DNA of 64,000 bases, taken from positions 45,850,001 through 45,914,000 of the forward strand of contig OY754466.1 in NCBI GenBank assembly GCA_963575645.1. The letters run 5' to 3'. The notes below the pieces were generated by a model, which searched no databases, was not told the DNA's origin, and was given only the letters and a program-made list of their open reading frames with translations. Source of the DNA: Xanthostigma xanthostigma (Eukaryota > Arthropoda > Insecta > Raphidioptera > Raphidiidae). A program made the translations under genes and the position numbers. Shown piece after piece: positions 2,130-57,930 of the stretch; position 1 is the stretch's first letter; every line of letters starts with the position of its first letter.

Positions 2130-6959
<4,830 letters not shown>

Positions 6960-29950: not shown

Positions 29951-31080
<1,130 letters not shown>

Positions 31081-55019: not shown

Positions 55020-55023
55020 ACAC

Positions 55024-55558
55024 TGTAACGATTCAAAACTTTTATATTACATTGTACGTAGTTTAGAGGTAATAATTAGAATTGGGTATTTACTGTACTT
55101 GTCTATTTGTTTTGTCACGGCGCGTGTCAATTTTGGTTTTGGCATGTTGAACGACGCAGTGAAATAAAGAAAAAAATATGTTTTTTGTCTGAAAAAAGGC
55201 GGTAGCTTTTAAAAGGTTGAAATAGAATGTATTAAAATAAGCTGTGAAAAAGTGTTGAAATATTTCTTTTAAATCACATCAGGGAGAATCTGGAGTACTT
55301 GGTGATCTACCGATCCAAATTTCTTTTTGTATGTGTCGTTTAATTGATTATTTTTCACTTTGTCAATCCCAATCACATTAACATATCAGAAATTTTCTGT
55401 GTGTACATTCTAAGATATCTTGTTAACAACAATTTTATAATAAAACAGTCAAAATAAATATTTTAAATTGTTTATTAATTTTATTAAAATTTATTTTAAA
55501 TTATATTACGAGACGATTACGTGAGTTTATCCGAAACAGTCCAAAGCTAATCGTTACA
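55024..55558 (+). repeat. 5' LTR
   Basis: 535 bp, from TGTAACGATTC to AATCGTTACA. It contains an AATAAA at 55163-55168. It aligns without gaps with the 3' LTR, differing at one base near the right end by eye. Confidence 0.95.
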
Positions 55559-55720
55559 TTTGGCGCCCGAAAAAAGACTGAACCTTGGAAATTATCCAGA
55601 CTAACACCAAGTGACATTTTGGACATTTTAATAATAATATCAATAATTATTATTAAATCAATATCAATCAATTAACTATAAATCGATGTGTTTATATATT
55701 ATAAAATTTAAGTTATTAAA

Positions 55721-56572
55721 ATGACTACAAAAAGTGAAAAAAAAAGATCGTGCAAAACAAATTCAGGACAAATACCAGCAAGTACTAACTAAATGATTTG
55801 TTAAGAGATGAGGATAATAAATATTGTGTCGATTGCGATACAAAAGGTCCTCGTTGGGCATTGTGGAACATAGGTGTGTTTTTATGTATAAGATGTGCAG
55901 GAATACATAGAAATCTCGGCGTTCATATTTTGAAAGTAAAATCAGTGAATCTGGATACATGGACATATATTATCTCAACAGATGGGCAACAGTCGTGTTT
56001 GGGCTGTTTACGAAGTAAATTTGCCCGACCATTTCTGGCGTTCTCAGAACGATTCTAGTTTAGAGTCATTTGTGCGCGCGAAATATGAACATAAATAGTA
56101 TATCGCCAGAGAATGGGTGCCTCCGGCACTGCCAAAAGTAAATTGGGATAAAGAAGACGACAAATCCAGTGTCGAAAACGCGAAAGTTCAAAGCGAAGAA
56201 GAAAGTTTCTTTAATCAACCGACTCCGACCGAAAAAGAAGAGACGAAATTAACTGAAGATAGCATATTGGCATTATACGGCATTGCTCCGATGCAACAAA
56301 CCACATTTCAAGCAAATTACGCTCCGACAGAGGCAATTCCTGGCTTTCAAGTTCAGCAACAAGCATTTCAAGTTCCAGTTTATCCGACAAACTTGCAAGC
56401 TTCCTCGCAACCGCAGCAAGCTTTTCAAAACCAATCGACATTTGTTTCGCCGCCTCAGAATCAATTTGTGATGGCTCAACAAACGATGCAATCTCAAAAC
56501 TTCGCTCCTAATACGGGCGCAGCAGTGCCTAATCCCTTTTACGCTAATCAACAAGCCCTGCAACAACAGTAA
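55721..56572 (+). pseudogene. Captured SMAP-type ArfGAP sequence inside the LTR element (fossil)
   Basis: Intronless remains of a host gene for a SMAP-like ArfGAP, a GTPase-activating protein for Arf6/Arf1 that acts in clathrin trafficking. Recognisable parts, in order: a lysine-rich N-terminus, the ArfGAP zinc finger (CVDC ... CIRC spaced by 16) with the arginine-finger region CAGIHRNLG, a VPPALPKVNWDKE linker, the DSILALYG motif typical of SMAP proteins, and a Gln/Asn-rich tail. It lies on the same strand as the LTRs. It is shorter than usual SMAP proteins and broken, with roughly three or more breaks, so it should be read as a dead cargo. The lack of introns points to capture through RNA. 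The parental host gene is not in this window. Confidence 0.9.
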
Positions 56573-57036
56573 CTAAGTAGATAGTCAATTGTTTGTGTAA
56601 ATGTGCATAAAGAATTTAAAGCGGAATTATGGACAGTCATAGTTCATAATTAAATTTTACTATGACGCGCTATGACTGTGCATAAATTGTGATATGATTT
56701 AGTTAAATTTTGTCTTTGAACATCTAAATGCACAGATCTTTATTTTATACTTTGCAGTAAATATAAACACAATTGTTTTTTTTTATTCTTCGAACATTTT
56801 ATATTGTTTTCAGTTGAAAAGATTGATTAACTAATTTTTTTTTAATTGTTTTGAAATTTTTATGTTTTTTTTTTTAATATTTTATATAGTACGTGTAAAC
56901 GAAGATTAGCATTTTATTCAATGTGGTAAATCTTCGTAAAATTCCAGGTAGTACATAATTCTCATTTATTTAAGCGGTTCATCCTCCATGCATTTCTTTA
57001 TTCTAAAATTGTTCGTATGAACCGCTGGGGGGGCTA

Positions 57037-57571
57037 TGTAACGATTCAAAACTTTTATATTACATTGTACGTAGTTTAGAGGTAATAATTAGAATTGGGT
57101 ATTTACTGTACTTGTCTATTTGTTTTGTCACGGCGCGTGTCAATTTTGGTTTTGGCATGTTGAACGACGCAGTGAAATAAAGAAAAAAATATGTTTTTTG
57201 TCTGAAAAAAGGCGGTAGCTTTTAAAAGGTTGAAATAGAATGTATTAAAATAAGCTGTGAAAAAGTGTTGAAATATTTCTTTTAAATCACATCAGGGAGA
57301 ATCTGGAGTACTTGGTGATCTACCGATCCAAATTTCTTTTTGTATGTGTCGTTTAATTGATTATTTTTCACTTTGTCAATCCCAATCACATTAACATATC
57401 AGAAATTTTCTGTGTGTACATTCTAAGATATCTTGTTAACAACAATTTTATAATAAAACAGTCAAAATAAATATTTTAAATTGTTTATTAATTTTATTAA
57501 AATTTATTTTAAATTATATTACGAGACGATTACGTGAGTTTATCCGAAACAGTCCAAAGCTAATCGTTTCA
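57037..57571 (+). repeat. 3' LTR
   Basis: 535 bp, the direct repeat of 55024-55558 at an offset of 2013. The matching AATAAA at about 57176 may end the element's transcript. The host flank with the second ACAC begins at 57572. Confidence 0.95.
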
Positions 57572-57615
57572 ACACACATACATCAATTAGAAAGTGATCT
57601 GAAACGATTCCCTGA

Positions 57616-57930
57616 GTATAATACGCGCCACGGATCTAAAAGGTTCGGAAGTTAGTCACAAACAGCGTCGCAAAGACACATTTTAGTGCTGTTGATACTC
57701 CCACCACCTCCCAGCTACCTGCAGAGAACGTGCGCTCGTCGATGATTGACCGTGATCGCTCGTTGCCTTTGTCACTTGTCGCTTTCCTGCTTTAAAGTAC
57801 AGTAGCTATTGTCAAGTTGCTATTGCTATTTTAGTTTTGTTGAGTTGCGAGTTTGTAGTTTTTCAATAGACTACAAGCTCGCATTCGCATCTAACTTCCG
57901 AGCCTTTTAGATTCGTGGCGCGTATTATAC
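57616..57930. mobile_element. MITE with GTATAATACGCGCC ends, 315 bp
   Basis: GTATAATACGCGCCACGGAT at the left is inverted at the right (ATTCGTGGCGCGTATTATAC), with TCGGAAGTTAG blocks inside. It begins 40 bp after the second ACAC of the LTR element. A half copy is at 50649. Confidence 0.85.

Follow-up and report, generated by a model that had tools for sequence, protein, structure and literature searches.

A non-autonomous LTR retrotransposon family with SMAP-derived cargo in the genome of Xanthostigma xanthostigma

We identified a complete non-autonomous LTR retrotransposon of 2,548 bp, together with its 4-bp target duplication, in a stretch of 64,000 nucleotides of the Xanthostigma xanthostigma genome (hereafter the window) and confirmed that it is not a one-off, belonging instead to an amplified family present at about 46 places. 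Judged by comparison with the host gene, its cargo is a retro-copied, spliced SMAP mRNA that includes part of each untranslated region. The reading we favour, to which we assign a probability of roughly 93 %, is that a Ty3/gypsy-type element captured the spliced SMAP mRNA and that the chimaera was then amplified in trans.

Anatomy of the element and its copies in the genome

The LTR anatomy proposed for this segment in an earlier note, made from the window alone, was confirmed in its 535-bp repeats, their ends, the primer site, the G tract and the ACAC duplication, with coordinates correct to the base (Table 1). The two LTRs have a single mismatch over 535 bases (A/T at position 533), the 5′ LTR running from TGTAACGATT to AATCGTTACA and the 3′ LTR ending in AATCGTTTCA, with TG...CA ends present. 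The primer site, TGGCGCCCGAAAAAAGAC, begins two bases past the 5′ LTR and agrees at 15 of 18 bases with TGGCGCCCGAACAGGGAC, which we take to be the 18-nt tRNA-Lys primer site of retroviruses; some sister copies match that site at 18/18. A run of seven G residues (57027-57033) stands three bases ahead of the 3′ LTR. The internal region measures 1,478 bp, of which the SMAP-derived stretch (55584-56918) makes up nearly the whole, and the element has no gag-pol of its own beyond the final pol codons. Two classes of non-autonomous element were considered and rejected on size: the total length of 2,548 bp compares with less than about 1 kb for TRIMs, and the 535-bp LTRs and 1,478-bp internal region compare with LTRs of about 4.4 kb and a central domain of about 3.5 kb for LARDs (PMC3532108).

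Table 1 Features of the SMAP element, in window positions
Feature	Position	Strand	Evidence
Target-site duplication ACAC, left	55020..55023	.	sequence
5′ LTR, 535 bp, TGTAACGATT...AATCGTTACA	55024..55558	+	direct repeat; at least 40 genome matches
Primer binding site, variant tRNA-Lys type	55561..55578	+	15/18 to TGGCGCCCGAACAGGGAC
Final element-own bases ahead of the 5′ SMAP join	55579..55583	+	three-way comparison; motif in 30/30 copies read
SMAP 5′ untranslated sequence	55584..55720	+	parent L029 from base 912
SMAP coding remnant, ATG 55721 to new TAA 56570-56572	55721..56572	+	frame broken
ArfGAP zinc-finger part, one open frame	55789..56055	+	Pfam ArfGap E 1e-25
Exon-exon junction; parent has a 350-bp GT-AG intron here	55846..55847	+	seen in 25/30 copies
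In-frame TAG (EHK*)	56096..56098	+	common to 30/30 copies read
Deletion 1 join (330 nt of parent absent)	56148..56149	+	parent comparison
Deletion 2 join (183 nt absent; 8-nt repeats TTCGCTCC)	56501..56509	+	parent comparison
Deletion 3 join (365 nt absent including parent stop; 8-nt repeats AACAACAG)	56562..56570	+	
SMAP 3′ untranslated sequence, to parent L029:3531	56573..56918	+	parent comparison
Element-own 3′ end: final pol codons (NVVNLRKIP) and 3′ region	56919..57036	+	similarity to L063
3′ LTR, 535 bp	57037..57571	+	direct repeat
Target-site duplication ACAC, right	57572..57575	.	sequence

Searching the 623-Mb genome with the LTR gave at least 40 scored matches (40 of 394 candidates scored), while the internal region gave at least 43 matching pieces, with 37 entries, the window included, at full length and 92-100 % identity (40 of 58 candidates scored). 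We read 20 other loci around LTR matches; nine had the LTR-SMAP-LTR arrangement and 11 a lone LTR. The recurrence of the same LTR with an exact 4-bp duplication at 20/20 of these loci excludes a chance origin of the LTR structure. LTR pairs within the loci read differ by 0 to 8 bases. The 11 lone-LTR loci were rejected as gag-pol partners, no reading frame above 163 aa being found within about 10 kb, and since each has its own 4-bp duplication they are solo LTRs.

A pattern consisting of the LTR end plus primer site with two mismatches allowed occurs at 49 places in the genome (reversed-pattern control, 0). SMAP follows at 46 of these and gag-pol at three; further copies with the same cargo, which the earlier note had named as prospective support, thus exist. 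By script comparison 40 of the 49 sites adjoin an internal-region match, and the other nine comprise the three gag-pol sites and six with SMAP (L045, L046, L047, the third unit of L009, the truncated L058 and the interrupted L062). The SMAP copies are spread over 11 contigs (C1-C11) on both strands. Thirteen aligned copies differ from one another by up to about 3 %, and internal regions are identical in three pairs of loci. Two loci with identical internal regions, L017 and L020, have different duplications (GACT and ATCT), which shows recent transposition of the SMAP element.

Two tandem arrays were observed, one of four LTRs and three cargo units (L009, C6:31540800-31550400) and one of three LTRs and two cargo units (L014, C5:23660000-23668600). 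Each has one outer duplication, as expected of recombination between LTRs.

Elsewhere in the window, about 40 bp from the insertion, lies a MITE-like feature (57616-57930) with 40-bp inverted repeats that are 95 % complementary and 235 bp apart. Plus-strand coding pieces for SH2 and tyrosine-kinase domains (2130-2513 and 6642-6959) are probably exons of one SH2-kinase gene, and a long AT-type simple repeat (30484-30795) gives Tyr-Ile open frames on both strands.

The SMAP donor gene and the state of the cargo

Using the ArfGAP region of human SMAP1 as a genome query we identified an intact SMAP gene on contig C10 (L029) with 486 codons in two coding exons separated by a 350-bp GT-AG intron, the separate multi-exon parent that the earlier note had anticipated. 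Its best-scoring relatives, among the best 120 of 3219, are insect SMAP proteins (beetle, lacewing and others) at about 51 % identity. The element matches this gene from 168 bases ahead of the ATG to 3′ untranslated sequence, part of the cargo being 96 % identical over 365 nt, with the intron precisely absent. The exact exon-exon junction is present in 25 of the 30 copies read (the loci fetched plus the window, out of 46 SMAP sites); the junction motif was not found in the other five of the 30 (three L009 units, L026 and L047), in four of which, as aligned, the stretch is deleted.

Relative to the parent, three internal deletions recur in the copies. The first, of 330 nt, is present in 30/30 copies, 26 by exact motif and 4 with one neighbouring base change; the second, of 183 nt, in 29/30, L045 ending before it; and the third, of 365 nt, in 28/30, 27 by exact motif and L046 with one base change, its motif not being found in L045 (cut off) or L047 among the 30. 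The second and third lie between 8-nt repeats (TTCGCTCC and AACAACAG, respectively), as expected from jumps of reverse transcriptase, and we infer that all three deletions arose by template jumps.

The description of the cargo as an intronless SMAP-type ArfGAP gene held for the absent intron and the ArfGAP match but not for an intact gene. The Pfam ArfGap match of Table 1 is accompanied by a second in another frame (55949-56095, E 0.0013), and the best solved-structure match of the ArfGAP part is human SMAP1. The coding frame is broken close to the N terminus and again within the ArfGAP domain, and it contains the in-frame TAG. The break within the domain removes 4 to 14 nt, in no case a number divisible by three; it was recognised by motif in 28/30 copies, and a lesion at the same place is seen in the alignment of L010 and L016. 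Four matches to the human SMAP1 query form one continuous frame but for the TAG, at 52 % identity with a garbled stretch. With the TAG in 30/30 copies and the ArfGAP frame lesion, no working ArfGAP is expected from the copies read, and transduction of the oncogenic type with an active cargo protein was rejected by reading frame on the same two features.

Whether the cargo was ever under selection was approached from several sides. The copies and the parent are separated by 17 fixed coding differences (8 synonymous, 8 missense and 1 nonsense), and of the nine that alter the protein, five fall on residues that do not vary among 15 SMAP proteins. In 12 of 13 copies a tail frame of 157 aa is open; its variable sites fall 7, 8 and 5 on codon positions 1, 2 and 3 (13 rows), with no sign of protein constraint. 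dN/dS between copies and parent is 0.22-0.37 (30 copies), a value that mixes the constrained branch of the parent with that of the element. At synonymous sites the copies have diverged from the parent by about 0.1; in a branch test whose null has both branches of equal length and the element evolving freely, the observed value lay somewhat above expectation (p 0.02 to 0.32 in seven non-independent copies). Codon positions and fixed differences give no support for selection on the cargo, while dN/dS and the branch test are ambiguous. Owing to the excess synonymous divergence, the mRNA may have come from a diverged allele, from a paralogue or from the gene of a related species, or selection may have acted on the cargo for some time.

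SMAP sequence was also observed outside the LTR family. Two loci on C10 (L030, C10:793900-795700, and L031, C10:11584900-11586700) hold a SMAP fragment that lacks the same 330 nt and are 96 % alike over 1.1 kb, L030 adjoining a TNP-like RNase H transposase frame (domain E 5.7e-7). The fragment has some derived bases in common with the element and is free of both the TAG and the frame lesion. These loci appear to represent SMAP sequence in a second class of mobile element, one resembling a DNA transposon, and suggest that the 330-nt deletion predates the later lesions or was already in the donor RNA.

It is very unlikely, in our judgement, that the captured ArfGAP once had a function for the element, such as in the membrane traffic of its particles, and has since died. 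Two of the three deletions (330 and 183 nt) are multiples of three, the less damaged fragment in the second mobile element would represent an early form, and the low dN/dS, though it includes the constrained parental branch, and the largely open tail frame point the same way; against this stand the TAG and the ArfGAP lesion throughout the copies read, the replacements at invariant residues and the even spread of variable sites over codon positions in the tail. On balance the SMAP part reads as passenger sequence.

An indirect source of that passenger, with SMAP acquired from an intermediate retrogene or from a related species and the element arriving by horizontal transfer, we regard as unlikely. 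It would accommodate the synonymous divergence from the parent, set against the ≤3 % among 13 copies, as well as the deletion shared with the second mobile element, but the untranslated regions and the intron position match the local gene.

Gag-pol relatives, the two joins and the proposed origin

The three gag-pol sites (L059-L061) run into a gag frame of 385 aa that is open in all three, followed by a pol frame that stays open as far as the sequence was read. Three elements of 6.67 kb are delimited by paired LTRs that lie 6.1 kb from each other and match the query LTR at 99-100 % identity. Their LTRs have the same ends as the SMAP element but for one or two bases and are followed by the same variant primer site; identity to the SMAP element LTR is 87 % over aligned columns and 81 % by blastn with gaps counted. 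The polypurine tract is likewise common to element and relative. The earlier note had looked to a gag-pol relative with the same LTR, and what we found is a relative with a homologous LTR that, at this level of identity, belongs to a sister family and is not the direct source. Assignment to Ty3/gypsy fits the sequence of gag, protease and the 3′ end of pol, whose domain matches are weak: in L059 a Ty3_capsid match falls below the cut-off (E 0.0011), an RVP protease match is at the cut-off (E 5e-4), and pol ends in what we take to be a GPF-type integrase tail.

A second gag-pol LTR family was observed at nine loci (L049-L057), with a gag frame of 387 aa open in 9/9. Its tRNA-Lys primer site is perfect, and its LTR opens with the same 11 bases as that of the SMAP element, past which it shows no more similarity than shuffles (one LTR compared). 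It was rejected as progenitor, its LTR being otherwise unlike, and remains a possible helper.

Comparison of element, SMAP gene and relative located both joins. A 311-base piece from the 3′ end of the relative (L063), in which pol ends ...HNVVNLRKIPK before the stop, is identical to the window from 56919 onward in 126 of 133 columns, the final 14 of which are LTR; the final 118 bp ahead of the 3′ LTR are about 94 % identical to the relative. Similarity to SMAP stops at 56918 and similarity to the relative starts at 56919, inside its final pol codons, with no clear shared bases between SMAP and the relative in the three-way comparison. At the 5′ join the relative (ATCGTTGGGAAT) and SMAP (ATCTTGGAAAT) are alike, the sequences reading GACTGGATCGTTGGGAAT in the relative, CCATCTTGGAAAT in the SMAP gene and GACTGGACCTTGGAAAT in an element copy, a configuration that would fit a template switch at a short similar stretch. 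The 5′ join recurs in 30/30 copies read and the 3′ join in 28/30, the exceptions being L045 and L047, whose matches end at internal positions 949 and 1228. From the two joins it follows that the SMAP mRNA took the place of all element sequence between a few bases past the primer site and the final pol codons, so that the claim of an ArfGAP gene in place of gag-pol is upheld for gag and nearly all of pol.

These joins also bear on whether a processed SMAP pseudogene made by a LINE came by chance to lie between two solo LTRs, which we find hardly credible. The cargo is indeed intronless and broken, as such a pseudogene would be, but a single duplication lies outside both LTRs, the primer site and the pol remnant are joined directly to SMAP, the 3′ join has no poly(A) tract, and in 46 of the 49 places the primer site is followed by SMAP. 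The earlier note had given solo LTRs around a processed pseudogene as the finding that would overturn its reading; the recurrence of the joins and the match of both ends to a gag-pol relative exclude it.

Template switching during reverse transcription accounts most simply for the replacement by SMAP. Under the favoured account a Ty3/gypsy-type LTR retrotransposon would have co-packaged spliced SMAP mRNA with its own RNA. While making the minus strand, reverse transcriptase would have quit the element RNA within the final pol codons, moved along the SMAP mRNA from the 3′ untranslated region almost to the 5′ end and gone back to the element RNA beside the primer site, an order of switches that we infer. 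The chimaeric cDNA, with two LTRs, primer site and polypurine tract, would then have integrated and reached about 46 places by copying in trans, with the enzymes of intact gag-pol relatives, while other insertions collapsed to solo LTRs. As candidate enzyme donors, L059-L061 rank first on the homology of their LTRs, and L049-L057 are a possible helper by virtue of the shared first 11 LTR bases and perfect primer site. A direct progenitor was not found among the 40 of 392 LTR candidates scored, the LTR of the gag-pol relative being 13 % diverged, and it may have been lost or may be among the unscored LTR copies. That LTR divergence, the 3′ join without evident shared bases, the synonymous divergence of the cargo and the SMAP fragment of L030 and L031 sit less easily with the account.

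Because one genome retains the donor gene, the intact relative, the chimaera and the two switch points, the template-switch model can be checked base by base. Of its own sequence the element has kept the two LTRs, the primer site plus about five bases, and 118 bp at the 3′ end; since it was copied dozens of times, the signals that a helper needs to package and copy it must lie in these stretches, unless SMAP supplies them.

Comparison with known gene-carrying elements

Gene capture by LTR elements is already known, and ours is a Bs1-like transducing element, unusually complete and amplified. Maize Bs1 is an LTR element with host-gene exons and no full-length host reading frames (PMC5408686, PMC13317346, PMC4717578). 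The SMAP element likewise took up host exons without a full-length host frame; unlike Bs1 as there described, which has three gene segments and resides in a plant, it carries one mRNA with untranslated parts, in place of gag and nearly all of pol, in an insect and at about 46 places.

LTR-mediated metazoan retrocopies have been described from Drosophila and mosquito (Tan et al. 2016, as cited in PMC5408686), and according to that citation they too have a spliced mRNA between LTRs and are ascribed to template switching at short similarities. The SMAP element combines spliced host mRNA between LTRs with an intron-bearing parent gene, and shows short similarity at the 5′ join and none evident at the 3′ join. 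The Drosophila and mosquito retrocopies are reportedly mostly single insertions, whereas the SMAP chimaera is a propagating family. The statement in the earlier note that such capture is rarely reported in insects needs qualifying, as these cases (Tan et al. 2016 via PMC5408686) and one from Plutella (PMC9674220) are described. Among the open-access papers listed, none shows a SMAP capture by a retrotransposon, as judged by title and start of abstract.

In the Plutella xylostella case, Pxyfem, 11 W-linked PxyMasc retrocopies give rise to small RNAs, and their LTRs were not identifiable (PMC9674220). Shared with the SMAP element are the insect host, the combination of an LTR retrotransposon with spliced host mRNA, the multiple copies and a proposed switch with short shared bases; the SMAP element differs from Pxyfem as reported there in having LTRs, primer site and both joins intact and its copies dispersed. 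By analogy the SMAP copies might act as RNA, yielding small RNAs that silence host SMAP. Such a role would be favoured by the 96 % identity of part of the cargo to the parent, enough for small-RNA targeting, and by the precedent that LTR-made multicopy insect retrocopies give piRNAs against a parent gene (PMC9674220), but the copies lie on 11 contigs and both strands, not on one sex chromosome, and we consider it quite improbable. The broader conjecture, also by analogy and also improbable, is that a captured housekeeping mRNA became the body of a transposon family whose copies feed small RNAs controlling host SMAP ArfGAP. If true, the family would be a convergent relative of moth Pxyfem with genome-wide and recently mobile sources, and would provide dispersed RNA-based control of ArfGAP for host or element.

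Returning to captured passenger sequence amplified in trans, short non-autonomous elements are a further point of reference. The ant element PbTRIM (harvester ant) is a non-autonomous TRIM with 4-bp duplications (PMC3532108), and the soybean GmaRetroS15 is a plant TRIM that acquired exons (PMC4717578). Like TRIMs as characterised there, the SMAP element is non-autonomous with LTRs, primer site and polypurine tract, and its duplications are of 4 bp as in PbTRIM; unlike them it is 2.5 kb long, carries 1.3 kb of host mRNA and has a gag-pol relative with a homologous LTR. What is remarkable is its copy number and the completeness of the evidence within one insect genome. In oncogene-transducing retroviruses spliced host mRNA replaces viral genes and propagation depends on a helper. 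The SMAP element resembles them in having spliced host mRNA in place of element genes, and differs in that no working cargo protein is predicted, there is no sign of infection and amplification took place in the germ line. A captured mRNA can thus spread as dead cargo, which bears on the origins of gene-carrying elements and of gene-silencing retrocopies.
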